From contig JAOZFG010000040.1 of the NCBI GenBank assembly GCA_027491435.1, positions 1 through 40,769 of the forward strand: DNA of 40,769 nt, read 5' to 3'. Both the position numbers and the translations under genes were made by a program. The notes beneath the pieces are model-generated. The model was given only the letters and a program-made list of their open reading frames with translations. It was not told where the DNA came from and searched no databases. Source of the DNA: Thermoproteota archaeon (lineage in GTDB: Archaea > Korarchaeota > Korarchaeia > Korarchaeales > Korarchaeaceae). Position 1 is the first letter of the stretch; each line of letters begins with the position of its first letter. Positions 1-36,021 of this stretch are shown here, one piece after another.

Positions 1-293
1 CCTGTCTCAGGGTCCAGCGCCACCCCAGTAAACCTTACAGCGAAGTTCACAACTGTCTCGTCCACGACAGCCACTCCCTTGCTTTTAACAGCCATGATCT
101 CGCTCATCCCGCCTAAACCTGTACCTTCCTTACCTTCATGGCCCCTAACGCCTAGCAAGCTAAGCTGGCTGACACGCCTGGCAGGCCCGAAAGTAAGCAG
201 GGCGTAAGCTACTACCAGCAGGGGGGTCCGCTCTCTAACGGAGTTGAAGGTTCTCTTTCTCCATATGACATCAGCAACCCTGCTTATAACCAC
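1..293 (-). CDS. DDE transposase-like protein, N-terminal part (partial at window edge)
   Basis: An open frame of 97 codons runs on the minus strand from a GTG at 293 (in-frame TAA at 299-297) off the left edge. An internal ATG at 107 is a possible later start. I translated it by hand; the protein reads DVIWRKRTFNSVRERTPLL near its start and AVVDETVVNFAVRFTGVALD near the window edge. The latter resembles the first catalytic Asp region of DDE transposases (DET...V...vAvDpeT), with Asp78 as the candidate. The basic N-terminal segment would fit a DNA-binding region. I see no terminal inverted repeats, and the rest of the gene is outside the window. Similarity is from memory of family motifs, so a non-transposase is possible. 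Confidence 0.5.
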   Translation of the reverse strand, partial: MVISRVADVIWRKRTFNSVRERTPLLVVAYALLTFGPARRVSQLSLLGVRGHEGKEGTGLGGMSEIMAVKSKGVAVVDETVVNFAVRFTGVALDPET

Positions 294-363
294 AGCTTAA
301 GTTGACAACATAAGGCACCAAAATTTCATAATCTAAAGGGGATTATTGAAATTCAAGGACATA

Positions 364-375
364 GTATTTAAATAC
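364..375 (+). promoter_or_regulatory. TATA box inside an inverted repeat, upstream of the exported-protein gene
   Basis: GTATTTAAATAC is a perfect palindrome placed about 40 nt before the ATG at 410, which suits an archaeal TATA box with a short leader. It is flanked by TCAAGGA (353-359) and TCCTTGA (378-384), a 7-base inverted repeat centred one half-turn-compatible base from the TATA centre. The flanking arms could bind a dimeric repressor covering the TATA box. The promoter role is inferred from position and composition. Confidence 0.55.
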
Positions 376-409
376 CCTCCTTGAGGTCGCACGTGATGGG
401 GACGCGGAC

Positions 410-763
410 ATGAAGTTGAAAGATTTATCTATTAAGCTAATATCGGTTATAATTGCGCTCTTGATGGCGATCTCTCCTTTACCCTTAGCAGCGTATGCCG
501 GGAGTGCGGGGGCTGGCATAAAGCCTGATGTAATTAGGAGTTGCAGCAGGGTTTACATGTACGTTGGCCCTGGGGAATACGAGTGGGAGGTTATATACGT
601 AGGTCATGTGGACTCTTGGTCTGTCAGATTAGTTTATAATTCACACCCGTATTTCCTGTGGTCAGCCTTCTACTCAAATGGATACATATATATAATCGTT
701 CATAATTTACACCGATATAGTGGGCTATCGCTGGTCTTCGAAGTTTGCTGGACCATCTACTGA
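410..763 (+). CDS. Small exported protein of unknown function, first gene of ABC cassette
   Basis: 117 residues. Residues 1-30 form a clear Sec signal peptide: Lys-rich start, a hydrophobic core (LISVIIALLMAI), then LAAYAGSAG with likely cleavage after an Ala near residue 30. The mature part is about 85 residues, very rich in Tyr, Trp, Val and His, with two cysteines (in RSCSRVY and FEVCWTIY) that could form one disulfide linking the two ends of a beta-rich fold. No lipobox and no known domain recognised. It lies 39 nt upstream of two MacB/LolC-like permeases and an ATPase, so it is a natural candidate substrate, ligand or sensor for them. Codon use is AT-rich (many ATA, TAT, ATT), unlike the genes after 3600, suggesting a foreign or fast-evolving origin. 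Confidence 0.75.
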   Translation: MKLKDLSIKLISVIIALLMAISPLPLAAYAGSAGAGIKPDVIRSCSRVYMYVGPGEYEWEVIYVGHVDSWSVRLVYNSHPYFLWSAFYSNGYIYIIVHNLHRYSGLSLVFEVCWTIY

Positions 764-801
764 TCATTATCGTTTTATTTTTAAAGGAGGGATAGCGGTC
801 G

Positions 802-2055
802 ATGAATTATAGAATATTTATAACGGACTCGAAGGTCTACAATATATCGTTAATTATAGCTCTAACCCTCATATACACCCTCTTCATGTTTGGGGTTTAT
901 ATAGTTCAATCTACTCAATTTATTAGCGAGCAACTGGAAAAAACTACTAAATATAGCTTCATAATGGTTCACTATATACCACCATCTGAGTACCAGGGGC
1001 CTGAATCCGCAGGGACTAAACTAATGGAGCAAATTTACGAAACCATAAATTATCTGAAAGGTCATGGAATAAAGGTATATGAAACTAAGTTTTATCCAGA
1101 TAAACTTCCCCCAGAGTATGCCTGTAACTACATGGAGGAAATGATAGACAGGTCCATGAAGAGCAAAGAGGCGCAAGAGAATTCAGGGGTAAGGGAGAAC
1201 CTAGAGTTGATAAAGGAGATAGCTTGTCTCCAAGGTTATTCTTTAGAACTAATAGCCATGACTGACGAATTTAACTGGAATTATCTCTCCTTAATTTCTG
1301 GAAGGTATCCGGAGAAGAGGGGCGAGTGTATAATTCCGTTGGGACTATACTATATGATTAACATGGGAACTGAGTTGAGGTTGGGGGACGAACTAAGGCT
1401 TACCAAGTACAGATGCAGGGTAGTTGGCATATACCTTCCGATAGAACCGACAACCCCTAGTAAGCTCGTCATAGTAAAGGGAACTCCGATGAGAGCAGGC
1501 AATGCGTTATACGATGAGTCCCCTGTAACAATCTACTGGGTGGACCTGTCAAAGAACAGGTCTGAAGTCCTCCTCAGAGTTTCCTCCTTATCCTTATCAG
1601 GGCATCCCGGATTGCCCGCAAGCGTTAGATTAGAGTTTGAGAGGTTCCAAGAGTTATCCGCTAATACCTCTTACCTCCTGGTGATTTTCTCAGCATTAGC
1701 TCTAATCCTGCTCACCTTAGTAGAGATGAAAGTGGAAGTTAGGAAGAAGGGCATTATCATATCCCAGGGCGTACCTACCGGCTTCCTAATGAGAGTTGAC
1801 TTCTTAAGAGAGGTCATGCTGCTACCCTCCTTACTTCTGGGATTCTTGACAGTTCATCAACTCTACCTGGATATGGTAAAGCTATTCTTCTCCAGTTACT
1901 CCATCACCAGTTTCCTAGAGCCCTACTTCTACTACAGCAGACCCTCACTTAACATCCTGATTTTGAGCCTGTTGTTGCCCCTCTCTAGGCTTCTAGCCTT
2001 GTTAGCCTACTGGAGGTGGTTGAATGGCAGGCAAGTCGGTAGTATTATCGGTTGA
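802..2055 (+). CDS. MacB/LolC-like ABC permease 1
   Basis: 417 residues with the topology of the type VII (mechanotransmission) ABC permeases: TM1 at about 15-37, a large extracytoplasmic domain of about 250 residues, then three TM helices (about 290-310, 335-355 and 383-405). The external domain ends with a MacB periplasmic-core-like segment (SGRYPEKRGECIIP, then LRLGDELRL and YRCRVVGIYLP), which is also present in permease 2 downstream. It lies in one transcription unit with the exported protein, the ATPase (32 nt overlap) and permease 2. The first two-thirds is AT-rich (for example 20 G+C in bases 841-900), while the last third matches the chromosome. Family members move lipoproteins, peptides or antibiotics, or transmit force, so the substrate here is not predictable. 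Confidence 0.8.
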   Translation: MNYRIFITDSKVYNISLIIALTLIYTLFMFGVYIVQSTQFISEQLEKTTKYSFIMVHYIPPSEYQGPESAGTKLMEQIYETINYLKGHGIKVYETKFYPDKLPPEYACNYMEEMIDRSMKSKEAQENSGVRENLELIKEIACLQGYSLELIAMTDEFNWNYLSLISGRYPEKRGECIIPLGLYYMINMGTELRLGDELRLTKYRCRVVGIYLPIEPTTPSKLVIVKGTPMRAGNALYDESPVTIYWVDLSKNRSEVLLRVSSLSLSGHPGLPASVRLEFERFQELSANTSYLLVIFSALALILLTLVEMKVEVRKKGIIISQGVPTGFLMRVDFLREVMLLPSLLLGFLTVHQLYLDMVKLFFSSYSITSFLEPYFYYSRPSLNILILSLLLPLSRLLALLAYWRWLNGRQVGSIIG

Positions 2056-2665
2056 TGGGATAAGCAAGAGGTATAGAGACCTCGTCTTCTCCAACTTCAC
2101 CTGGGAATTTCCCAATTCGGGCATGTTCGTGATCAAGGGGCCTAACGGATCGGGCAAGTCCACCCTGCTCAGGGTGCTGGCCTGCATGGAGCCCCCGGAC
2201 TCCGGAGAGGTAAGGCTGATGGGCGAGGTTGTGAGGGATTACAGGGCCAAGGTGTACCATAAATACGCTAGGGTGATAAGCTTCAGCTTTCAAGAACCAG
2301 CTCTCCTCCCCATAAGCGTTGAGAGGAACCTGCAGGTTCCTACTTTAGTTGATGAGGGTAGGTTAGAAGAGGTTATAGATGCGTTAGGCCTCAGAAAACT
2401 TCTTAAGAGTAAGGCCACCAAGATAAGTGGAGGAGAGAAGAAAAGGACTGATTTGGCTAGGGCTTTATCGAGGAAGACGCCTGCTCTATTAGCAGATGAG
2501 CCTCTATCCTTCCTAGATCCCGAGTACGTGGAGGTCGTCACCTCTTTGCTGAGGGAGGAGGCCAAGCAGAGGTTGGTAATAGCCACCACAACGGGCTCAG
2601 ATCAGCTCACGGATGCTGCAGATACGGTTATAGATATAATGGACTACAAAAGGGCTAGACAATGA
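2024..2665 (+). CDS. ABC transporter ATPase (MacB/LolD type)
   Basis: 213 residues, the usual size for a LolD/FtsE/MacB-type ATPase. Walker A GPNGSGKST is at 39-47, Q-loop Gln90 in SFQEPALLP, signature ISGGEKKR at 134-141, Walker B ALLADEP around 154-160, and D-loop SFLD at 162-165. The switch-histidine position after the last core strand reads VIATTTGSD (about 185-193), where the family normally has a His, so the H-loop His appears replaced by Thr. ATG at 2024 overlaps the end of permease 1 by 32 nt and the stop overlaps the start of permease 2 by 4 nt, implying coupled translation. It should drive the two neighbouring permeases as a heterodimeric exporter or mechanotransmitter. Confidence 0.9.
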   Translation: MAGKSVVLSVDGISKRYRDLVFSNFTWEFPNSGMFVIKGPNGSGKSTLLRVLACMEPPDSGEVRLMGEVVRDYRAKVYHKYARVISFSFQEPALLPISVERNLQVPTLVDEGRLEEVIDALGLRKLLKSKATKISGGEKKRTDLARALSRKTPALLADEPLSFLDPEYVEVVTSLLREEAKQRLVIATTTGSDQLTDAADTVIDIMDYKRARQ

Positions 2666-3588
2666 AGCATAAGACCCTGATGATTGTGGCCGACTTCCTG
2701 ATAACCTTTTTCTTGCTCACTACCCTGTGGGCCACCTACTCCATGACCCACGCCTTGAAGGGGAGGATAGGAAAGGTCAACTACTTTGCTGCCAGGAACC
2801 CAGTGCCTGCCGAGGGGCTCTATAGGGTCAACGTAACCACGTGCGGTAACCTGACGGTCGCATACTACTTGGAGCTTCCAGAGCCGGCCATGCCCTTGCT
2901 ACTCAAGGGCCGCTACCCCGATAAAGGGGAGTGCGTAGTCACACCTCTCCTTTATTCTCAAATCAAGGGCGACAAGTTGAACTTGGGCAACCTGACTTGT
3001 GAGGTATCTGGAGTAGTATCTATGTGGAGGGCAGTTAACGCCTCTAGGCTAGTTATGGTCAGGTCTAGGGGTTCTGGCTTTCCTATCTACGTTATTAGGC
3101 TGGATCCTCAACAGATTCAAGTCATCGAGTCTCATCCTGAGCTCGTCAGCCTAGCCCTTCCCCCTACAATATCAGCGATTGCTGTGGAGAGTTCCTTGGG
3201 GATGCTTAACTCTCTGACGACAGCTCTCACGGCGATCTCTCTGGTCTCCTCCGTCTTCCTATCTTTTATAGTCATCAAACACGAAGAGTTGGGTAAGTGG
3301 GCCCTAAAAACTGCTATGGGAAAGTCCTGGTGGTGGACTTCCCTTCAGGACGTAACTGTGTGGGCTTTAATTCTCTCCTTAACATCTCTAGCAGCCTATC
3401 AGCTGACTGCTACCGCAGGAAAAGGATTTGCTGAGCTCCTGCTAGGGTTGAGCTTGTCCGATGTGTGGACTCATGTCCCCCTCCTTGAGCTGGCCTTACA
3501 GGTCTTGACCTTCCCGGTGGCCTACCTTACAGTAGGGGCCGTAGCCTCAACTGTTGGAGGCCTTCTCCCCCTTAGCAGATCCCTTTAA
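2662..3588 (+). CDS. MacB/LolC-like ABC permease 2
   Basis: 308 residues. TM1 is at about 5-27, followed by an extracytoplasmic domain of about 150 residues and three TM segments (about 182-205, 226-250 and 270-300). It carries the same external motif as permease 1: KGRYPDKGECVVTP, then LNLGNLTCEVSGV. The two are therefore paralogues with different-sized external domains, matching a heterodimeric LolC/LolE-like arrangement around one ATPase. The start overlaps the ATPase stop (ATGA). The last 42 nt overlap the convergent phosphatidyltransferase gene. Confidence 0.8.
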   Translation: MKHKTLMIVADFLITFFLLTTLWATYSMTHALKGRIGKVNYFAARNPVPAEGLYRVNVTTCGNLTVAYYLELPEPAMPLLLKGRYPDKGECVVTPLLYSQIKGDKLNLGNLTCEVSGVVSMWRAVNASRLVMVRSRGSGFPIYVIRLDPQQIQVIESHPELVSLALPPTISAIAVESSLGMLNSLTTALTAISLVSSVFLSFIVIKHEELGKWALKTAMGKSWWWTSLQDVTVWALILSLTSLAAYQLTATAGKGFAELLLGLSLSDVWTHVPLLELALQVLTFPVAYLTVGAVASTVGGLLPLSRSL

Positions 3589-4143
3589 CTTCATCCTAGT
3601 GAAAGCGCTGTAGGATCTCTCTCCCACAGTTATATAACTTAGCAGGACTATCAGAAATAGCCCTAGCTCCAACCTATCAGTTAAGCAGGCCAAGGAAGCT
3701 ATTATCATCCTCTCCGGCCTCCCCGCCAAGCTGAACTCCGTCCCCTTAACCCCTAAGGACTCGGCCTTGGCCCTGACGTAGCTAACCATCATGGAGGAGT
3801 GTATTGCTAGGGCCGACATCAGGAAGTCCTCGCCAGGGAAGCCCATCCCCAAAAGAATCAAACCATCAGAAACCCTGTCAAAGACCGAGTCCAGGAAAGA
3901 CCCCTTCTCACTTGCCGAATTGGTAGCCCTAGCTATTGCACCGTCGATCATGTCAAGAAAGCCTGAAGCTAGTATAAGGAAGCCGCTGACCCTAACGTAT
4001 CCCTTGTAAAGGGTGTAGAACGTGAAAGCCGATAGAAAGAGGCCCATTACAGATACGTGATCCGCTCTAAGTCCGAGGTTGGCTAGCTTGAGTCCTATGC
4101 TCTCAGTTATTCCTGAAACTCTCGACCTGGCCCTCTCCAACAT
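3547..4143 (-). CDS. CDP-alcohol phosphatidyltransferase (archaetidylinositol-phosphate synthase-like)
   Basis: 198-residue membrane enzyme that joins a CDP-activated lipid to an alcohol phosphate. The complete family motif is present: Asp64, Asp67-Gly68, Ala71-Arg72, Gly81, Asp85 and Asp89, with the exact D-x2-DG-x2-AR-x8-G-x3-D-x3-D spacing. Hydrophobic segments flank the motif and fill the second half. Length and the N-terminal ERARSRVSG style resemble archaeal archaetidylinositol-phosphate synthases, but the alcohol substrate (inositol phosphate, glycerol phosphate or serine) cannot be read from the motif. It is transcribed divergently from the trmJ-like gene, and its 3' end overlaps permease 2. 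Confidence 0.88.
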   Translation of the reverse strand: MLERARSRVSGITESIGLKLANLGLRADHVSVMGLFLSAFTFYTLYKGYVRVSGFLILASGFLDMIDGAIARATNSASEKGSFLDSVFDRVSDGLILLGMGFPGEDFLMSALAIHSSMMVSYVRAKAESLGVKGTEFSLAGRPERMIIASLACLTDRLELGLFLIVLLSYITVGERSYSAFTRMKLKGSAKGEKASNS

Positions 4144-25916: not shown

Positions 25917-27032
25917 ATGAGCGTTAACGACTTGAGTTTCATGACCCTCGAGGAGAGCTTCGTTAAAGTGAAAAGCAAGCTTCTGGAGGACTTTTCGAGG
26001 AACTATGATGAGGAGAAGGACTTGTTCGACAAGCACTGGTCCGAAGGTATAGGTAAGGGGGACCTCAATCCAATAGCTGCGGTAGATGGTGGAAGCAGGC
26101 CCGTATCCTACACTCAGGGGAGGGTCCTCTTCCTCACCTCTGCCGCCATGATAGTTAAGGGCTCTAAGCTGAAGAGGTACAGAGTTTACCAGTTCGGAGT
26201 AACTGACTACTACGAGGCCAACGAGAGGATAAGGTATTGCAGGGAGGTATTGGAGAGTAAGATGGCGAGGGTCTTCCTGTTTGAACACGATGAGGGCCTC
26301 CTCCTAATGGACGGATCCTTATCAGCCCCCCTTGAGCACAGGGTCTACGTAACTAAGTACGAGTTCACATCCCCCTCCTCGCTGAAGTACGTCTTGAGGA
26401 GCCTCATAGAAGAGATGCAGACCTTTCAGGGGATAAAGTCGTACACACATGACTTGAATAACAGGGAGAGGCTTCAAAGTGAGGTGTCCAGCTCCCTATC
26501 TAAGCTGCTGGGAGAGGGGGCTGTAGCTAAGGTTGAGGACGTGTCCATGGCCATGGCCTTCCTGGAGAGATACGAGGCCCTAGAGAGCTTCAAATCCCTT
26601 TACGAAGGGGCCCTCTCCGGTGAGGTCAAGCTCATCGGCATCTCCAAGAGGTCTTCGAGCAGGAGGTACTTCGAGTCCAGGATACCTGATATAGAGATAG
26701 TCGGCCGCTTGGCCAAGTCCGTCGGCTACCTGAAGCCCAAGACTTACGAGGTCAGGCTCCCAGATTACGTGGGGAACCACTCATTTCCAATAACCCTGAC
26801 CTATGTCAAGTTGGAGGACAACACGCCCCCCATGAAAGTGGAAGTTTTGGGTTCCATAGGGGAATCGGAGCTCCTGAACATACTGGGTACTCTCCGGAGG
26901 TATTCCGTGAAGGGCTACCCGTATCACCTTAGGCTCGTCCACGAGATGGCCAAGATAAGCAAAGACATGGTTGATTTCGTGTTAAGAAGTATTGAGACCG
27001 GTCCTACTGGGAGGGAGTGGCTTGGAGAGTGA
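25917..27032 (+). CDS. nurA: NurA nuclease
   Basis: 371 residues. NurA resects 5' strands of DNA ends together with the HerA translocase. Metal-binding motifs are visible: AVDGGSR with Asp57, and LLMDGSLSAP. The C-terminal HEMAKISKDMV segment also matches the family. It is the first gene of the repair run nurA-herA-mre11-rad50. The HerA start lies just after its stop. Confidence 0.92.
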   Translation: MSVNDLSFMTLEESFVKVKSKLLEDFSRNYDEEKDLFDKHWSEGIGKGDLNPIAAVDGGSRPVSYTQGRVLFLTSAAMIVKGSKLKRYRVYQFGVTDYYEANERIRYCREVLESKMARVFLFEHDEGLLLMDGSLSAPLEHRVYVTKYEFTSPSSLKYVLRSLIEEMQTFQGIKSYTHDLNNRERLQSEVSSSLSKLLGEGAVAKVEDVSMAMAFLERYEALESFKSLYEGALSGEVKLIGISKRSSSRRYFESRIPDIEIVGRLAKSVGYLKPKTYEVRLPDYVGNHSFPITLTYVKLEDNTPPMKVEVLGSIGESELLNILGTLRRYSVKGYPYHLRLVHEMAKISKDMVDFVLRSIETGPTGREWLGE

Positions 27033-27036
27033 CCAC

Positions 27037-28620
27037 TTGGGTAAGGTGGGGCCCAATTCAACCCCCACCAGGGTTAGGCTCATCGCCTATCAAGGAGTGG
27101 TGCCCAGCGTTGGGGATTACGTTATCATCGAAGGGGATGACGAACAGCTCCTTGGGATGGTCAGCGACGTGACCAGGGGGGCTATAGAGTTCTCCAGAAC
27201 CGACTTGATACAGGCTGACTATTACGACAGGATTCTGGAAGTGGTTGAGAAGCCCAGCCAGTGGGCGATAGCAGAGGTCAGGATATTGGGCAGGCTCGAG
27301 GAGGGCAAGCTAGTGGGGCTGTCCAGGAGGCCTCCCCCCTCAGGAGCGAACGTTAAAAGGGCCCCTAAAGATGTTTTGCAGGGGATATTCTCACCTCCCG
27401 AGGGAAGAGAAGGGATCAGGATAGGCAAGCTCATGTCCAGGGGCGATGTTGACGTTTACCTGGATCCGGACAACTTGATAGCCAGGCACCTAGCCATAAT
27501 AGCTGTAACGGGAGGCGGGAAATCCAACACGGTCGCTGTTATCCTGGAGGAAATCCTCAGAATGGGCGGAGTGGCTATGCTCTTCGACGTACACTCCGAG
27601 TACGTTGGAATGGAGGTTGACTGTGAGGGTTGTGAGGTAGAGCCTGTGGATCCCATATTAGATCCAAACAAGCTGTCCAAAGATGAGCTGGCCAGCCTCC
27701 TGGGAATAAGCTTCAGGTCAGCTGCCAAGATGTACATATACCTGAGCAGAGCGTACAACAGGGCAAAGAGCCTGCTGATGAAGGATTCGCTAGCCGACGT
27801 CCTTAGAGAGGCTGACATGAAGGATTACAACTCCAAGGACCTATTAGCTGGGGTGATGGCCCTCCTTAAGCTGACCGTAAGGGAAGAAGAGGGCCTAGGA
27901 ATTCCTTTGGACAGCAAGAAGGATAGGGAAAGCGTATACAGCCTCATCTCCAGGATAGATCACCTCATGTCCGTTTACGGGAAGATACTCAAGCCTGGGG
28001 CCGGAGACCTGACAGATCACTTGGACTACGGAAAACTGGTCATAGTTAAGCTGGGCCAGCTAGACCTGGAGCTCACCGATGTAGTGGTCGGAAAGAACCT
28101 GATAACCCTCCTCAACAAGTCCAAGGTCATGAAGGTCACAGGGGAGCGCTTAATCCCTAACCCTGTGCTGGCGGTCATAGAGGAGGCCCACGTGCTCCTG
28201 CCGCCAGGAGGGGACACTTACACCTTGAAGGCGGCCTCGGCAATAGCTAAGGAGGGGAGGAAGTTCGGCGTCGGTTTATGCCTGGTAAGCCAGAGGCCCA
28301 AGAAGCTTGACTCCGACGTCCTCTCACAGATGGTGAACAAGATAATCCTCAGAATCGTTGAACCAGACGACCAGCTGTACGTCAGGAGGGCCACAGAATT
28401 CTTGAGCGAGGAGCTCACCTCCTACCTGCCGTCGCTCAACGTGGGAGAGGCCATAGTGGTGGGTCCAATGATAAGGACACCAGCTCTGGTCAAGGTTAGG
28501 CTATTCCAGGGCAAGGCTGGCGGGGAGACGCCCAGCGCTTACGAGGCATGGCGGAGGGGCAAGGAAGAGAAGTCCTTAGCCAAGCCTGATGAGGACTACT
28601 ACAGCTCAATAGGTGATTAG
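27037..28620 (+). CDS. herA: HerA DNA translocase/helicase
   Basis: 527 residues. A beta-barrel HAS domain opens the protein (VPSVGDYVIIEGDDEQLLGM). The FtsK/HerA motor follows with Walker A VTGGGKSN (Lys162), Walker B VLAVIEEAHVLLPP and a SQRPKKLDSDVLSQ sensor segment. HerA forms a hexamer that feeds DNA ends to NurA. TTG 27037 is chosen over TTG 26992 because it begins where HerA proteins usually begin and has GGAG 9 nt upstream. The longer start would run within nurA. Confidence 0.92.
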   Translation: MGKVGPNSTPTRVRLIAYQGVVPSVGDYVIIEGDDEQLLGMVSDVTRGAIEFSRTDLIQADYYDRILEVVEKPSQWAIAEVRILGRLEEGKLVGLSRRPPPSGANVKRAPKDVLQGIFSPPEGREGIRIGKLMSRGDVDVYLDPDNLIARHLAIIAVTGGGKSNTVAVILEEILRMGGVAMLFDVHSEYVGMEVDCEGCEVEPVDPILDPNKLSKDELASLLGISFRSAAKMYIYLSRAYNRAKSLLMKDSLADVLREADMKDYNSKDLLAGVMALLKLTVREEEGLGIPLDSKKDRESVYSLISRIDHLMSVYGKILKPGAGDLTDHLDYGKLVIVKLGQLDLELTDVVVGKNLITLLNKSKVMKVTGERLIPNPVLAVIEEAHVLLPPGGDTYTLKAASAIAKEGRKFGVGLCLVSQRPKKLDSDVLSQMVNKIILRIVEPDDQLYVRRATEFLSEELTSYLPSLNVGEAIVVGPMIRTPALVKVRLFQGKAGGETPSAYEAWRRGKEEKSLAKPDEDYYSSIGD

Positions 28621-29802
28621 ATGAGGATAGTGCACTTCTCCGACAATCACCTAGGAAAGCTCCAGTTTAGCCTACCGGAGAGGGAGGAGGACATCTACAG
28701 GGGTTTGGAGAGAGCGGTGAATGTTGCTTTAGAGGTTAAGCCCGACCTCGTGTTGCATACGGGCGACCTCTTCGACCACCACGCCCCCCACCCGAGGGCT
28801 TTCGTCAGGGCTGTCGGCGCGATAACGAAGCTGCTGGACAGCGGGATAGAGGTGGTAATGATAGAGGGGAATCACGACGTGGGACCTGACACTGTCAGAG
28901 GAAGGACATCCTCAGCGATAATCAACTTGAGCAACCTGCTTAGGCAACTCGGGTACGATGGGTTTCACCTGCTGAGGCCCGGCACTTCCTTGAAGGTGAA
29001 AGACGTAACTGTAGTTGGGCTCCCCTACACTCCCAGGACAGTTAACGTGGCCGATGCCATAAAGTCCTTGGATAAGGTGAACTCACCAGATAGGGTAGGC
29101 GTTCTCATGCTTCATCAAGGGGTAAAGGAGATGATAGCTGCATTCTACCCTGAGATAGAGCTCAGATCCTTGTTAAGCACCAGGTTCAGGCTAATAGCCA
29201 TGGGCCACTATCACAAGAAGGTTGTGGTGAAGAAGGGGGACAGGGTCCTAGCCTACTCTGGGTCTACTGAGGTAATAGACATAAGGGAGGCGAACGAGCC
29301 CGAGAAGTACGTGTTGATATACGAGCTTGATGGAAAGGAAATAGAAGTTAAGGAGAGGACGTTGAAGACGAGGCCCTTCCTCAAGTTAAACAGGAGGATC
29401 AATAAAATAAAGGAGCTGACCTCATTAGTTGAAGAGCTCAGCGACCTGGCCTCTTCCTTTGAGGAGAAGCCTGTCCTAATCCTCAACGTGACTACGTCTG
29501 AACTCTCGGCCAGGAGAATAAGGGAGGAGCTTGAAAGCGTGAGGGACAAATTCCTCTACGTTAGAGAGAGGATACAGGCTAAGATAAAGGAGGAAGAGGT
29601 GGAGATGACTCCAAGGGGCTTTGACCTGACTGAGCTGGTCACCTCAATGATCAAGGATATGTCCTTGGACAACAGGGTTAAGGAGACCGCCATAAAGGCG
29701 TTCAGAATTTGGTACCTTGAGGGAAAGAGGGGTGATGACTTCGTTAAGGCCTTGAAGGAGCTCTGGGAGGGTTACTATGAAGATAAGGGCGATATCCCTT
29801 GA
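28621..29802 (+). CDS. mre11: Mre11 nuclease
   Basis: 393 residues. Phosphoesterase motifs in order: FSDNHLG (Asp8, His10), HTGDLFDHH, EGNHDVG and MGHYHKK. These bind two Mn2+ ions for 3'-5' exonuclease and endonuclease action. The C-terminal region binds Rad50. The start follows the herA stop directly and the end overlaps rad50 by 26 nt, so production is tightly coupled. Confidence 0.95.
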   Translation: MRIVHFSDNHLGKLQFSLPEREEDIYRGLERAVNVALEVKPDLVLHTGDLFDHHAPHPRAFVRAVGAITKLLDSGIEVVMIEGNHDVGPDTVRGRTSSAIINLSNLLRQLGYDGFHLLRPGTSLKVKDVTVVGLPYTPRTVNVADAIKSLDKVNSPDRVGVLMLHQGVKEMIAAFYPEIELRSLLSTRFRLIAMGHYHKKVVVKKGDRVLAYSGSTEVIDIREANEPEKYVLIYELDGKEIEVKERTLKTRPFLKLNRRINKIKELTSLVEELSDLASSFEEKPVLILNVTTSELSARRIREELESVRDKFLYVRERIQAKIKEEEVEMTPRGFDLTELVTSMIKDMSLDNRVKETAIKAFRIWYLEGKRGDDFVKALKELWEGYYEDKGDIP

Positions 29803-32497
29803 GAACTTCAGGTCCCACGTTAGGACGGAGCTCAACTTTGGGGATGGGATAGTGGCTATAATAGGTGAGAACGGGGCGGGGAAAACGTCAATCCTTGAGG
29901 CAATAGCTTATGCCCTATTTCCTGACCTGTTTAGGGGGAGGACAGACTCCTTAATGAGAGACGGAACGGACTACCTCAGGGTCTCCTTGGAGTTCGAGGT
30001 CAACGGCAAGGCGTATAGGGTTATCAGGGAGAGGCCCAGGGTGGGCCAGCCTACTGCCATAATAGAGGAGCTAGGCGAGAAGAGGAGGGTCCTTCAGAGG
30101 GGGCAGAGAAACGTGAACAAACAGATACTGGAGCTACTTGGCATGAGCCCCGAGGTCCTCATAAGCGCTGTTTACGTCAGGCAGGGCGAAATAGCTGATC
30201 TGATAGAGGAGAGCCCTACGGAGAGGAGGAAGTTGATAGCTAAGCTCATGAAGGTTGATCAGCTTGAAAGGATCTGGGACGACCTGGGGTCGGCTATATC
30301 TCACTTCAGGTCGGAGCTGGCCAGCGTTAAGGGCGAACTAACCGCCCTTCACGGGGCTGAAGGCGAACTCATAGAGTTGAAGAGGAAGAGGGACCTCCTC
30401 CAAGTTAGGAAGGAGGAGTTGAGCGGGAAGCTTGAGGACCTAATGAAGGAGAAGGCTGAAGTGGAGAGGAGGCTTGACGAAGTTCAGAGAAGGCAGGAAG
30501 TTTACATGGAGGTCAAGTCGGAGTTGGATAGGAAGGTAGGAGAGGCTCAACACCTGGAGGAGAAGATCAGGAGGCTGAAACGGGACCTAGCCATCATTAG
30601 TGAGAGGATAAATAAGTACAAGGAAAGAGTAAGCTCTCTAGGCAATCTAGAGATTGCTATGGAGGCTTACAGGATACACTCTGAGGTTGACAAGATATCC
30701 TCCGAGATAAGGCGAGTCAAGGACTGGAGAGATAGGGTTAACAGTATAAGGGAGGAGCTAGACTCCATAGAAGTTGATGAGAGCTCTTCTCAGCGTTACA
30801 TCGAGGTTAAGAGCGCTATTTCTAAGATTCAAGCTGAAATCTCCTCGAACAGAGAGGAGGTGGGCGCTTTAAGGTCTAAGCTTATAGAAAAGAAGGAGAG
30901 GATGGCCAATCTCATCTCTGAGGCTAGGAAGAGGATGAGCAGGCTATCCTCGATCACCGGTCTAGAGGTAAATTCTTTAGAGGAAGTTGATGAGGTCAAC
31001 GGATTCATTAAGGAGTTGGAGGAGAGGTTAGCCAAGTTAGAGGAGAGGAGAGACCTCATAATCAAGGAGTTGAGCGCTCTGGACGCTAGGATTAAGGAGT
31101 ATAGGAGATCCCTGGAATCGTTAAAGGGGGCAAGAGGGAAGTGCCCAGTCTGCGGGTCTGAGCTCAGCGATGAGAGAAGGTCTGAGCTTATGGACGAGTT
31201 CAGGGAAGAGATATTTAGGAGCGAGAAGAAGAGGTTAGAGCTCGATAAGGAGTTAGCTGACATTAAGGAAAGCATTCAGGAGGTCAGCGCTAAGCTTAAC
31301 ATGCTCAGGTCGTTCGACCTGAACTCGTTAAAGGAGTTGTTCACCACCATACCCTCCCTGGAGTCTGAGATAAGAAAATTAGAGAATTCTTTAGCCTTAA
31401 AGAGGTCAGCCCTCGTTGAGTTAGAGGGCAAGCTCTCAAAACTAGTTGATGAGAGGGATCGTCTGGAGGGGGAGGTGAAGAAGCTAGAGAGGAAGAGGTA
31501 CTTGAGGAACCTGCTGATGACCGAGTTGAGGAAGGGAAGGAACCTTCCAGACCTAGATCAACTAGAGTCCAAGCTTAGAGAGCTGAGAGAGAGGCTGTCC
31601 GATCTGGCTGCAAAGTTAGGCCTTGACGTTGATAGGGTAGGCTCCATTAGGGAGAAGGTAATTGAGGTCAAGAGGTTGCTGGAGGAGCTGGACAGGCTGA
31701 AGGGTAGGAAGTCGGCTGTTGAGGAGGAGCTGGAGAATCTTGAGAAAAGGCTTAACTCTGCTAGAATGGAGATCTCAAAGCTGAAGTCGAGCTTAGAGTC
31801 TGTGGGTTATTCCAAAGAGGAGCACCTGAGCCTAATCAAGAGGTTGAAGGAGCTCAACTCCTTGAAGTCGTCGGCGGAGAGAGAGCTTGGCTCCCTAGAG
31901 GGAGAGATCAGACGCCTGGAGGAGGAGATAAAGAGGAAGGAATCCGAAGTTAAGAAGCTCAAGGAGCTAAGGAGGAGGGCTAAGAGCCTTGAGGAGTACA
32001 TAGGGATTCTAGAAGAGGTGAGGGACATATTCCACAGGGAGAGAGGTATACAGAGGTACATCAGAGAAAAGGCCAGGCCCTTCATAGAGGAGAAGGCCTC
32101 TGAGATATTCTCATCCTTCGGCTTCCAGTACGACGGCCTTGAGATAGACCGAGATTACACCCCATACCTGATAAAGGGGACCAGGAGATACGGGATGGAT
32201 AAGATGAGCGGTGGCGAATTAATAGCAGTCGCCCTATCTTTGAGGCTGGCCTTAGCTAACTTCCTGGTGGCTTCGGAGGTCGAGAGCATCTTCCTAGACG
32301 AGCCCACAATACACCTGGATGAGAGCAGGGTCGACAGCCTAGTCGACTCCCTGACCCACATGGAAGTGCCCCAGCTCATCGTGGTGACTCACTCAGACAA
32401 ATTCATGAACGTGGCAGATCAGACCATCTTGGTTAAGAAAGAGAAAGGCGTCTCCGGGGTTGAAGTGATACAAACGTCAAATAAGGGATACCCTTAA
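29777..32497 (+). CDS. rad50: Rad50 ATPase
   Basis: 906 residues. Walker A GENGAGKTS is at 30-38, a long coiled coil is split by the zinc hook CPVC at 456-459, and the second ATPase half has signature MSGGE at 810-814 and Walker B FLDEP at 839-843. The length is typical of archaeal Rad50. It forms the MR complex that tethers and processes double-strand breaks. Several antisense frames over its coiled coil are composition shadows. Confidence 0.96.
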   Translation: MKIRAISLENFRSHVRTELNFGDGIVAIIGENGAGKTSILEAIAYALFPDLFRGRTDSLMRDGTDYLRVSLEFEVNGKAYRVIRERPRVGQPTAIIEELGEKRRVLQRGQRNVNKQILELLGMSPEVLISAVYVRQGEIADLIEESPTERRKLIAKLMKVDQLERIWDDLGSAISHFRSELASVKGELTALHGAEGELIELKRKRDLLQVRKEELSGKLEDLMKEKAEVERRLDEVQRRQEVYMEVKSELDRKVGEAQHLEEKIRRLKRDLAIISERINKYKERVSSLGNLEIAMEAYRIHSEVDKISSEIRRVKDWRDRVNSIREELDSIEVDESSSQRYIEVKSAISKIQAEISSNREEVGALRSKLIEKKERMANLISEARKRMSRLSSITGLEVNSLEEVDEVNGFIKELEERLAKLEERRDLIIKELSALDARIKEYRRSLESLKGARGKCPVCGSELSDERRSELMDEFREEIFRSEKKRLELDKELADIKESIQEVSAKLNMLRSFDLNSLKELFTTIPSLESEIRKLENSLALKRSALVELEGKLSKLVDERDRLEGEVKKLERKRYLRNLLMTELRKGRNLPDLDQLESKLRELRERLSDLAAKLGLDVDRVGSIREKVIEVKRLLEELDRLKGRKSAVEEELENLEKRLNSARMEISKLKSSLESVGYSKEEHLSLIKRLKELNSLKSSAERELGSLEGEIRRLEEEIKRKESEVKKLKELRRRAKSLEEYIGILEEVRDIFHRERGIQRYIREKARPFIEEKASEIFSSFGFQYDGLEIDRDYTPYLIKGTRRYGMDKMSGGELIAVALSLRLALANFLVASEVESIFLDEPTIHLDESRVDSLVDSLTHMEVPQLIVVTHSDKFMNVADQTILVKKEKGVSGVEVIQTSNKGYP

Positions 32498-32532
32498 TAC
32501 TGGTTACCTACACATATCACTGGTGGTGATAG

Positions 32533-32934
32533 GTGGCCAAAAAAAGGAGGGAGAGCGCCGACGACCCGTTCGATTCCTTCATAAGGGATATGATGGACTT
32601 CCTGAGGAGGATGGACGAGGAGCTCTCGGATCTGTTCGATGACGAGGTTGACAGCGAGTTCGTGAGTGATGATGCACCCTATGGATTTATAGGGGGTGAT
32701 GACTTGGAGCTGGAGGAGTCTGTTGACGTTATAGAGTTACCTGATGAGGTTCTGGTTGTTATGGAGATTCCTGGTGTTAGGAAGGAGGACATAAGCATAA
32801 AGGCCAAGGGGATGGAGCTTATAATAAGGGCTAAAGACCTGTTCAAGAGGGTCACTCTCCCAATAAAGATAAATCCGAGTAAGGCTAGAGCCACCTATAG
32901 AAACGGCATTCTGGAGATAAAGATCAAGAAGTAG
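32533..32934 (+). CDS. Hsp20-family small heat shock protein
   Basis: 133 residues. A charged N-terminus (KKRRESADDPFDSFIRDMMD) is followed by an acidic stretch and an alpha-crystallin domain (VIELPDEVLVVMEIPGVRKE, ATYRNGILEIKIKK). There is no C-terminal IxI extension. GTG start with GGTGGTGAT upstream. It sits between rad50 and the SF2 helicase on the same strand, 35 nt after rad50, so it may be read with the repair genes. A chaperone role for them would be inference. Confidence 0.88.
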   Translation: MAKKRRESADDPFDSFIRDMMDFLRRMDEELSDLFDDEVDSEFVSDDAPYGFIGGDDLELEESVDVIELPDEVLVVMEIPGVRKEDISIKAKGMELIIRAKDLFKRVTLPIKINPSKARATYRNGILEIKIKK

Positions 32935-32943
32935 GGGCGAGGC

Positions 32944-35900
32944 TTGAGGATTAGGAGCTCTGACCTGCTCAACAGACTGGGTTATGAGTACTACAGCTAT
33001 GTGGAGGAGGAGACCTCCCCTGAAAGCTCTAAGCTCAAGTTCTCGGACCTGATTCCCGAAATCAGGAACTCCAAGAAGGGTAGTAGACTAGCTGAGTTGC
33101 ACCTCTACTCCCATCAAGAAAAGAGTCTTAAGTCCCTCCGCGAGGGTAAGAACGTCATATTAATATCGGGAACCGGGAGCGGAAAGACTGAGGCCTGGTT
33201 CCTATACACGGCCACTTCGAGGGTTAAAACCCTTGTTGTGTATCCAACCCTGGCCCTTTCTAATGACCAGATTCAGAGGTTGAAGGATTACTCTCTAGCC
33301 TTAGGCCTGAAGGCCACAATACTGGACGCCTTGCACAGGAAGGAGCTGGTGAACCTCAAGGGGAGGAAGGGGGCTATAGCCGAGCTAGCTAGCTCCGACC
33401 TCGTAGTGACCAACCCTGCTTTCCTAATGTCGGATGTGAAGAGGTTGACTGCTGGCAGGTCTTACCTGGCCGACTTCATAAACCAACTCGAACTCCTGGT
33501 GATAGACGAGTTCGACTTCTACGGGCCTAGGGAGATAGCCCTGCTCCTCTCCTTGATCAAGATAATAAACTACTTCTCTGGGGGGGAATTGAGATTTGCT
33601 GTCCTGACAGCAACCTTAGGCAACCCAGAGGAGCTAGCGTCCTTCCTGACCTCAGTTAACGGGAGGGAAACTGAAGTCATAGTGGGTAAGCCGTTTAGGC
33701 TGAGGAACACGGTTTACGTTGTATTAGGAAAGAACATGAAGTCCCTTTGGGAGGTACTTAAACAAAGCTTAGACCTAGTGAAAAAGCACGTTTTAGGTGA
33801 GGAGGAGCCTAAGTTAGGTGAGGATATCCTAGAAGCTTTGCTGGATTACGAGAAGTTCAAGTCGGAGGCTTATAAAGTTGTTGAAGCCCTCAGGTCCATA
33901 GGGGTTGACGCCCCTTACCCAGGAATGGACCCCGTTGAGCTCCTCAGGGAGTACGCTGAGGACGACGGGGTCACCCTGGTGTTCACTAGGGGGATAAGGT
34001 CCGCTGAGCAGGTCAGGAGAAGGCTTGAGGAGGAGGTTCCTGGGCTGGTGGCCTCCCACCATCACCTGGTCTCCAAGACACAGAGGGAGGAGATAGAGAG
34101 GCTAGCTAGGGAGGGCGAGCTGAAGATCCTGATAAGTCCTAGAACCCTGTCTCAGGGGCTGGACATAGGAACTGTTGTGAGGGTAGTCCACCTAGGCCTC
34201 CCAGAGAGCGTAAGGGAGTTCAAGCAAAGGGAAGGTAGGAAGGGGAGAAGGAAAGAGATTAAGTTCACTGAGACAGTGATAATCCCTCAATCTCCCTGGG
34301 ATAGGGAACTCCTGCAGAGGGGTATAGAGGCCCTCAAGGAGTGGGTCAGCCTCCCCCTGGAAGTAGCGCTGGTAAACCCTTACAACAAGTACTCCAAGCT
34401 CTTCGAGGCACTCTTCAAGGTTAAGCACCCTAGCCTGAGGGGAAAGCTTGAGGAGGACGAATACGAACTTCTAAAGAGGTTGGGGTTGATTAAGGCTGGA
34501 GAGCTTACCGATAAGGGTAAGAGAGCCTGGAACTACCTAAACTTCTACGAGTTCGGCCCTCCCTTCGGCTTCAAAAGGGTGATGAGAGCAGGCCCCTCCG
34601 ACAAGTACTTGGAGGACATAGGCCACTGCGACCTGGTGGAAAAGTTTCAGCCGGGGAGCTTCGACTACGGAAACGACGGCGTAGTCACAGGGTTCCTGAG
34701 GAGAGGGTCTATCATAACTGGGATCGTTGAGGAGCCGATAGACGAATCGGTCCTCAACCACTACGACTTCTTAGCTCACACCCTGGAGGAGTACTACAAG
34801 ACCAAGTTCGAGTGGAGGGAACCCCCCAGCATACTCTCAGATTATTATAAGGGAAGGCTGGCCAGCGAGGTCATATGCGTTGTGGACCCCCCAACCAGGG
34901 GGTTTGGCGTGAAGACTAAGGCCCCCAACAGGGTCTATTGGATAGTGACCTCCTCAAAGTCCAGGCCTTTCATAACAGAGGATGGGAAGACCGTGCTATT
35001 AAGGGATAGAAAGAGCATACCCGTCATAGGCCCCACGGGGGGCGTTTACAGGGATTACACCTACGGGTTCGCTGTGGAGGTAGACCCCTCAGAGGATATG
35101 AGCTGGGCCAGGATAGGGCTGGCCGTCATGAAGTTGGTCATGAGGAAACGCCTCAACATCCCAGTGGACGCCTTGGAGTACGAGATATCCAACCTGGGGG
35201 ATAAGAAGCTGCTGATAGTGCACGAGCCTGAGTCGGCTGGCCTAATAGAGCAGATGGACTGGAGCTCGCTGAGGAGGGCCATATCTGAGTACAAGCCAGA
35301 CGAGCTAGACGAGGTGCTTCTAATGCTGATAGACGAGAAGGCCCACTTCGAGTTCGTATCCTCTGGTATGGAGTGGAGGCTAGCCCTTAAGTCCGCTGAG
35401 AGGATGGTTGACTACGTCATTTCCACCCAGAGAATAAGGTTGACGCTAGAGGGGCTGGAGTTCCATATACCTAGGCCCAGCAAGGCTCTGAAGGTCGCTA
35501 GCCTTGAGGTAATCTCCTTAGGGCTGAGCGAGTCTTTGTCGCTGGGGGGTATAGCTATTTATGATGGAAATGATGTGAGCGTCGACGTGGTGGTCAGGGA
35601 GATCTTTCAGAGTCCCCAGGTGGAGCTGAGCCTCTTAAATGAGGTGATAAACTCCGGCTTTAAGGTGGTGGTCTGGGACCTCCAGTCAACCCTAAATGAC
35701 CTCTCCTCTCTGGGGATGAAGTCCATCCAATACATGTTAATGGGCCTGCACGCTGAGAACAGGGTTTACAGCCTTAAGGGGTTGGTCGAGGAGAAGCTCG
35801 GCAAGCCCGTGCCTCCTGAGGAGCTCCTATCCTCCTTTGGGGAAATGGAATACAGGTTGAAGGACGTGCTGGCTGAGTTCAAGAAGTCAAAGGGCATACT

Positions 35901-36021
35901 GGAGGAGAGGGGTTTCCACCAGTGGCCTAGGTTCACTAAGTTCCTCCGGGAGAAGTTGAAAAAGGTTTTGGAAGACAGGGCCAGGGCCACGTACCTAGTC
36001 TACTTGGCCCTAGGTCAGTAG
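32944..36021 (+). CDS. SF2 helicase, divergent MrfA/Hrq1-like, with extra C-terminal domain
   Basis: 1025 residues. Helicase motifs: SGTGSGKT (75-82), DEFD (188-191), TATLGNPEELASF and QREGRKGRR (428-436). The layout after the motor resembles MrfA/Hrq1 enzymes: FQPGSFDYGNDGVVTGF near 575 and HEPESAGL (760-767) look like parts of a DUF1998/MZB-like region, but without its four zinc cysteines. Residues about 850-950 (SLEVISLGLSES, GGIAIYDGND, VVWDLQSTLNDLSSLG, SLKGLVEEKLG) recall a DEDD exonuclease with a damaged first Asp, which is a tentative reading. TTG start with a G-rich site. It follows the HerA-NurA-MR genes and Hsp20 and probably acts in DNA repair. Confidence 0.8.
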   Translation: MRIRSSDLLNRLGYEYYSYVEEETSPESSKLKFSDLIPEIRNSKKGSRLAELHLYSHQEKSLKSLREGKNVILISGTGSGKTEAWFLYTATSRVKTLVVYPTLALSNDQIQRLKDYSLALGLKATILDALHRKELVNLKGRKGAIAELASSDLVVTNPAFLMSDVKRLTAGRSYLADFINQLELLVIDEFDFYGPREIALLLSLIKIINYFSGGELRFAVLTATLGNPEELASFLTSVNGRETEVIVGKPFRLRNTVYVVLGKNMKSLWEVLKQSLDLVKKHVLGEEEPKLGEDILEALLDYEKFKSEAYKVVEALRSIGVDAPYPGMDPVELLREYAEDDGVTLVFTRGIRSAEQVRRRLEEEVPGLVASHHHLVSKTQREEIERLAREGELKILISPRTLSQGLDIGTVVRVVHLGLPESVREFKQREGRKGRRKEIKFTETVIIPQSPWDRELLQRGIEALKEWVSLPLEVALVNPYNKYSKLFEALFKVKHPSLRGKLEEDEYELLKRLGLIKAGELTDKGKRAWNYLNFYEFGPPFGFKRVMRAGPSDKYLEDIGHCDLVEKFQPGSFDYGNDGVVTGFLRRGSIITGIVEEPIDESVLNHYDFLAHTLEEYYKTKFEWREPPSILSDYYKGRLASEVICVVDPPTRGFGVKTKAPNRVYWIVTSSKSRPFITEDGKTVLLRDRKSIPVIGPTGGVYRDYTYGFAVEVDPSEDMSWARIGLAVMKLVMRKRLNIPVDALEYEISNLGDKKLLIVHEPESAGLIEQMDWSSLRRAISEYKPDELDEVLLMLIDEKAHFEFVSSGMEWRLALKSAERMVDYVISTQRIRLTLEGLEFHIPRPSKALKVASLEVISLGLSESLSLGGIAIYDGNDVSVDVVVREIFQSPQVELSLLNEVINSGFKVVVWDLQSTLNDLSSLGMKSIQYMLMGLHAENRVYSLKGLVEEKLGKPVPPEELLSSFGEMEYRLKDVLAEFKKSKGILEERGFHQWPRFTKFLREKLKKVLEDRARATYLVYLALGQ

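Follow-up and report, generated by a model that had tools for sequence, protein, structure and literature searches.

What does a small secreted protein do beside a two-permease transporter in a deep-branching archaeon? The question is raised by four plus-strand genes at positions 410 to 3588 of the window, the 40,769-nucleotide stretch of DNA analyzed here, which is the left end of contig JAOZFG010000040.1 (C2) of a 1.64-Mb draft archaeal genome. In order, they encode a small protein of 117 amino acids (aa), permease A (417 aa), an ATP-binding cassette (ABC) ATPase (213 aa), and permease B (308 aa). We give a probability of about one-half to the reading that this cassette is a mobile, genus-restricted surface module in which the exported small protein would have the extracytoplasmic domain (ectodomain) of the permeases as its cognate partner, with a role in conflict or recognition. 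A first-pass annotation, made from the letters alone, placed the four reading frames exactly. It also described them as one overlapping unit, which is true of the last three genes (overlaps of 32 bp between permease A and the ATPase and 4 bp between the ATPase and permease B), whereas the small gene is set off from permease A by a 38-bp gap.

Linkage and paired divergence of the two genes

Every small gene that was found directly adjoins, on its 3′ side, a gene encoding the ectodomain. This is the case in the window, in three further cassettes of the same genome (C18, C20, and the frameshifted C30), and in the related genomes G001, G015, G003, and G005 (G, C, and L numbers denote genomes, contigs, and loci). 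The C18 cassette consists of a small gene, a permease, a divergent ATPase, and a second permease. C20 has a small gene and one shortened permease, and C30 has a frameshifted small gene and two permeases, each of these cassettes lying at a contig end; the only ATPases of the cassette type in the whole assembly are those of C2 and C18. The small gene of G001 and G015 precedes a stand-alone ectodomain of 242 or 247 aa, secreted or singly anchored, which ends before the remaining transmembrane (TM) helices and has no adjacent ATPase. G003 has a small gene and a permease, and G005 has a decayed copy of the same pair. The frameshifts in the small genes of C30 (L023 7700-8056) and G005 C127 (L058 6730-7060) reflect either decay or assembly error. 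At meaningful E values, the small protein and the permease family were each found in one genus only among 394 archaeal genomes searched.

Ectodomain genes, in contrast, do occur without a small gene: as a stand-alone form in G005 (C31) and in G008 (C89, C92, and C49), which has several permeases and an ATPase and keeps the C18-like layout of permease, divergent ATPase, and permease. Thus, the partner may stand alone and the small gene never does. This asymmetry, in which an effector is always accompanied by its cognate partner and orphan partners are allowed, is expected for toxin and immunity genes and likewise for a ligand and its receptor. The link between small gene and permease proposed in the first-pass annotation therefore extends to relatives; that annotation had named an unlinked small gene, or membership of the small protein in a known unrelated family, as outcomes that would speak against it, and neither was seen.

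The two genes also diverge together. Comparison of the sister genomes G001 and G015 yielded 44 reciprocal-best protein pairs over approximately 51 kb, in which the small protein (54% identity) and the ectodomain (46%) stand apart from the other 42 pairs (79 to 98%); the next lowest are a probable spurious open reading frame at 79% and a pair at 83%. Synonymous change is near saturation in the cassette pair only, and nucleotide identity drops from ~92% to ~57% in the cassette and returns to ~89%, with sharp transitions at the cassette edges. A distant allele that replaced both genes together would leave this pattern. Beside the cassette, G015 also has a degenerate second copy of the neighboring 179-aa gene (~58 to 65% identical; L024 3857-4264), which is possibly a remnant of the replacement event.

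These observations bear on whether the small protein could instead be a dedicated extracytoplasmic helper, without a role in conflict, of a type VII ABC machine that acts on lipids or surface proteins, by analogy with TesA for YbbAP, EnvC for FtsEX, and LolA for LolCDE. The small gene heads the gene set, the ectodomain family is common to all cassettes, and type VII systems typically pair the transporter with a periplasmic partner (PMC12646458). However, the pair is patchy, occurs in multiple copies and at more than one site, shows decay in two of its copies, and was replaced as a unit in one sister pair. Partners of this service kind are as a rule conserved and inherited vertically. Furthermore, G001 and G015 have no multihelix membrane domain or ATPase to be served, and G008 retains its permease-ATPase-permease layout without the small gene. 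Because of this mobility, decay, and patchiness, together with the orphan ectodomains and the paired allele replacement, we favor a conflict or recognition role over that of a housekeeping partner, which we consider unlikely.

The exported protein and the transporter

The small protein has a single N-terminal hydrophobic segment (residues 10 to 28 by hydropathy), which would serve as its own Sec-type export signal, and exactly two cysteines, Cys45 and Cys113, so that the signal peptide and cysteine pair first ascribed to it are both present. As had also been anticipated, profile searches of Pfam, NCBIfam, PHROGs, and PADLOC gave no family match. Leave-one-out profiles, built with signal peptides removed and with unrelated decoys and shuffled sequences as controls, recovered the window protein at an E value of 1.6e-6, compared with 0.37 for the best decoy or shuffle, which indicates that the family is more than a chance grouping. 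The C18 protein was recovered at 6e-4 and those of G001 and G015 at ~1e-21, the decoys reaching 0.06 at best. The C20 and C2 genes have a leader region in common, with 88.8% identity across 116 bp and, in the protein, 83% across residues 6 to 46; beyond it, the nucleotide sequences are no longer alignable. That the leader is shared while the mature parts differ is suggestive of domain replacement.

A structure model of the small protein, predicted from a single sequence (mean predicted local distance difference test score [pLDDT], 73), is a six-stranded antiparallel beta sandwich (strands at residues 42 to 52, 57 to 63, 69 to 77, 83 to 89, 92 to 98, and 106 to 116) with Cys45 in the first strand and Cys113 in the last. 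The mature protein would be closed by a disulfide. The nearest solved folds found by Foldseek in the PDB include carbohydrate-binding modules, phage and pyocin fiber tips, H-type lectins, and GOLD domains, none at an E value of <0.1; the H-type lectin matches have probabilities of 0.75 to 0.89 and E values of 0.5 to 1.1 for this single-sequence model. Viral neighbors include fiber and H-type lectin domains (E, 0.002 to 0.08). No sequence match to H-type lectins was found in Pfam or the PDB. The model is consistent with a small binding-domain sandwich of H-type-lectin-like shape, probably with lectin-like binding activity, rather than with a member of the lectin family.

Hydropathy predicts TM segments in permease A at residues 17 to 35, 289 to 307, 338 to 356, and 385 to 403; in permease B, those at 6 to 24, 187 to 205, and 277 to 295 are clear, and the expected third segment is too weak to call. 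One TM helix, a large extracytoplasmic domain, and then three TM helices make up the type VII architecture. The shared motif and the unequal external sizes noted in the first reading are both evident (Table 1); each permease has GRYPxK(x)GEC and, later, a second cysteine ahead of a V(V/S)G stretch. Across the family alignments, the first motif cysteine is invariant and the second, before VVG, is found in most members. We also observed a CxxC at the ectodomain end of the three stand-alone proteins and of C18 permease B (L022 8310-9344, L024 5228-5956, L025 5296-6039, and L059 6098-6826).

The permeases had no usable match in Pfam, NCBIfam, PHROGs, or PADLOC, and a structure model of permease B from four sequences was poor (pLDDT, 46). 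The family profile finds paralogues in the same genome at E values of 1e-80 to 1e-118, most of which were in the model. Against the PDB, a profile of 13 permeases matched MacB (5nik, E = 1.7e-6; 5lil, E = 1.4e-4; and a third MacB match, E = 1.3e-3) and, weakly, LolC (E = 0.065), and hhalign with two ordinary permeases of the FtsX/MacB_PCD kind from the same phylum gave a probability of 96% (E = 2e-9). Because the profile matches both MacB and these permeases, the transporter is, as judged from its sequence, a divergent, remote type VII ABC system of the MacB type, which bears out the MacB/LolC-type assignment made initially.

The window ATPase, an ordinary ABC_tran protein, has intact Walker A, Walker B, Q-loop, and signature motifs. 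The switch-histidine position is occupied by threonine, and by alanine in the ATPases of C18 (L022 7715-8362) and G008 (L055 5801-6442); other ABC ATPases sampled in the same genome mostly have the histidine, with glutamine in one subgroup and few other exceptions. The best NCBIfam match is TIGR03608, the lactococcin 972 ATPase (106.9 bits; cutoff, 254.85), and the scores against the FtsE model TIGR02673 (94.7 bits; cutoff, 264.85) and the LolD model TIGR02211 (82.1 bits; cutoff, 307.75) are also far below threshold. Its PADLOC matches look like generic ATP-binding-domain hits. The genome scan with the ATPase returned one close relative, in the G008 record JAMOVA010000089.1 (C89). The ATPase alignment found nothing related in the viral contigs scanned, and a viral origin was rejected.

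The adjacency of the small gene to the ABC genes and the identity of the best ATPase match would fit export of the small protein by the ABC complex, a role proposed for the ABC genes of lactococcin 972-type bacteriocin operons. However, the TIGR03608 score is below its cutoff, neither the peptide nor the permease models for lactococcin 972 give a match, and lactococcin 972 is outside the top 50 structure matches. The small protein carries its own Sec-type signal, and there is no adjacent ATPase in C20, C30, G001, or G015 (the first two being at contig ends). We consider this explanation improbable, and the self-protection exporter suggested in the first-pass annotation is not required.

A surface module in which the small protein binds outside the cell accounts better for the same facts, because of the Sec-type signal and the ectodomain of G001 and G015 without later TM helices or an ATPase. 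Since type VII systems usually act through a dedicated extracytoplasmic partner (PMC12646458), the small protein is most simply the partner of the ectodomain. The cysteine-motif ectodomains of the two MacB-type permeases would bind it directly, and the permeases and ATPase would form a type VII machine in which ATP binding is coupled, by mechanotransmission, to movement of the ectodomain on the outside rather than to export of the small protein. Small protein and ectodomain would then be inherited and replaced as a matched pair.

Insertion sites and flanking repeats

The window cassette is inserted between two genes that are neighbors in eight related genomes, where a CDP-alcohol transferase gene lies directly beside a conserved gene for a 739-aa EF-2-like GTPase with no cassette between them (both named by sequence appearance). 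This region is complete in G014, G002, G001, G009, G005, G015, and G011 and is cut by a contig edge in G007. The cassette of G001 and G015 occupies a different site, between genes that elsewhere are adjacent or are separated by another insert. That site looks like an insertion hot spot because G008 and G003 hold a different small membrane protein there (147 or 151 aa; L174 2609-3052 and L176 2936-3391).

The genome has 24 exact copies of the motif TTAAGTTGACARC, compared with 0 of its reversed control; the motif delimits a decayed ~660-bp element. These repeat ends are 19 bp long (GGTGCTGTCAACTTAAGGC), with transposase-like remnants inside (window 1-312, C17:528-1190, and 22 other ends). Positions 6 to 307 of the window are 78% identical to the almost intact ~660-bp copy L108 (C17:528-1190). 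On its minus strand, the repeat has a DETVV..ALDPE-like stretch, which from its motif we take to be a transposase remnant. Among 15 other genomes of the genus, a single exact repeat end was found, in G015, and Rfam matched nothing in the repeat element or in cassette C18.

All four cassettes have a repeat end 73 to 135 bp away (P, ~4e-9 under uniform placement and ~3e-5 if repeat ends can lie only in one-tenth of the genome), a post hoc statistic, with the same repeats probably causing the contig breaks. Such flanking repeats, together with the two frameshifted copies, could mean that an island associated with insertion sequences (IS) carries the small gene as a neutral passenger, functionally unrelated to the permeases. 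However, the linkage persists without adjacent repeat ends, at a different site, and with a stand-alone ectodomain. In addition, the pair is under purifying constraint (for the small protein between G001 and G015, nonsynonymous differences [pN] of 0.28 versus synonymous differences [pS] of 0.66 and a dN/dS ratio of ~0.2) and turns over together. A passenger role thus has little to recommend it, and the cassette itself appears to be mobile, IS associated, and genus restricted.

The features of the locus are listed in Table 1. A stretch like the candidate promoter element is also present 5′ of the small genes in C20 and C18. Elsewhere in the window, positions 25917 to 36021 hold a repair gene cluster (NurA-HerA, a calcineurin-like, Mre11-like phosphoesterase, Rad50-like genes, and a DEAD-box helicase), and the remaining genes scanned have an ordinary archaeal housekeeping look.

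Table 1. Features at the left end of the window (TIR, terminal inverted repeat)
Feature	Position	Strand	Description
Repeat (decayed IS-like) element end	1-312	.	Cut off by contig start; TIR-like end TTAAGTTGACAAC at 297-309
Probable archaeal TATA element of small gene	366-376	+	TATTTAAATA; candidate, read directly from sequence
Small exported protein	410-763	+	117 aa; signal peptide, ~residues 1-30; Cys45 at 542-544, Cys113 at 746-748
Permease A	802-2055	+	417 aa; type VII (MacB-like) subunit; ~250-aa ectodomain
Permease A ectodomain motif GRYPEKRGEC	1300-1329	+	Second conserved Cys, C205, at 1414-1416
ABC ATPase	2024-2665	+	213 aa; PF00005, E = 5e-26
Permease B	2662-3588	+	308 aa; same family as permease A; ~160-aa ectodomain
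Permease B ectodomain motif GRYPDKGEC	2908-2934	+	Second Cys, C113, at 2998-3000
CDP-alcohol phosphatidyltransferase-like gene	3547-4143	-	Marks insertion site; named by sequence appearance

Weight of the evidence and comparison with known systems

Several points weigh against a surface module of matched partners. Leave-one-out profiles with the leader removed detect no homology of the mature C20 and G003 small proteins to the others, and the family membership of these two is based on position, size, the two-cysteine pattern, and, for C20 only, leader identity. The fold model comes from one sequence and has no Foldseek match at an E value of 0.001 or better. In the draft assembly of the window genome, all four cassettes reach a contig end or lie close to one. 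Paired replacement was observed in one pair of sister genomes, and the G003/G005 locus has diverged no more than its flanks, which suggests that turnover of the pair is episodic. Finally, the dN/dS ratio indicates purifying selection and coding constraint, with no detectable positive selection.

For the role of such a module at the cell surface, we lean toward a secreted antagonist with ectodomain-based immunity over a nontoxic ligand for recognition or sensing (about 60:40). We propose only tentatively that the cassette represents an undescribed IS-associated archaeal system of conflict or self-recognition, in which matched alleles of a secreted lectin-like protein and a MacB-type or stand-alone ectodomain are exchanged between Korarchaeum-like species. 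Interactions among deep-branching archaea are poorly understood, and the cassette offers a defined and testable pair, with natural alleles, orphan partners, a stand-alone version of the ectodomain, and unoccupied insertion sites. To the type VII ABC permeases it further contributes an archaeal branch with a cysteine motif, in which the constant companion of the small protein is the ectodomain and not the whole transporter.

The likeness to LolCDE and to lactococcin 972 loci drawn in the first-pass annotation extends to the layout and, for the latter, to the best ATPase match, but membership fails at the curated cutoffs. Assignment to LolCDE was rejected on the LolD score and the lack of any match to a LolC/E model, assignment to FtsEX on the FtsE score, and assignment to lactococcin 972 systems on the TIGR03608 score and the lack of a Pfam or NCBIfam match for the small protein or the permeases. 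Like lactococcin 972 operons, the cassette combines a small exported protein with MacB-like ABC genes. However, those operons have one large permease rather than two short ones, lactococcin 972 is not among the top fold matches of the small protein, and its target, lipid II, is missing in the archaeal hosts.

The predicted small six-stranded antiparallel sandwich resembles H-type lectins and phage or pyocin fiber tips, with target-normalized Foldseek template modeling (TM) scores of ~0.5 for Helix pomatia agglutinin and SLL-2, but the E values are 0.002 or weaker and there is no sequence match. Archaeocins such as sulfolobicins and halocins are archaeal proteins directed at close relatives; related strains of Sulfolobus, for example, are inhibited by sulfolobicins (PMC4609331). 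A putative antagonism of the small protein would liken the cassette to these.

A further comparison is with MacB, LolCDE, FtsEX, and YbbAP, which share with the cassette permeases of one TM helix, a large extracytoplasmic domain, and further TM helices, together with a separate ATPase; the presence of two different permeases further recalls LolC and LolE. Unlike those systems, most cassette permeases fall below detection by the Pfam FtsX and MacB_PCD models, and the ATPase has threonine or alanine in place of the switch histidine. The cassette is also patchy and mobile, and its ectodomain is distinguished by the GxYPxxGEC...C.VVG pattern and by its occurrence as a stand-alone protein in three genomes.

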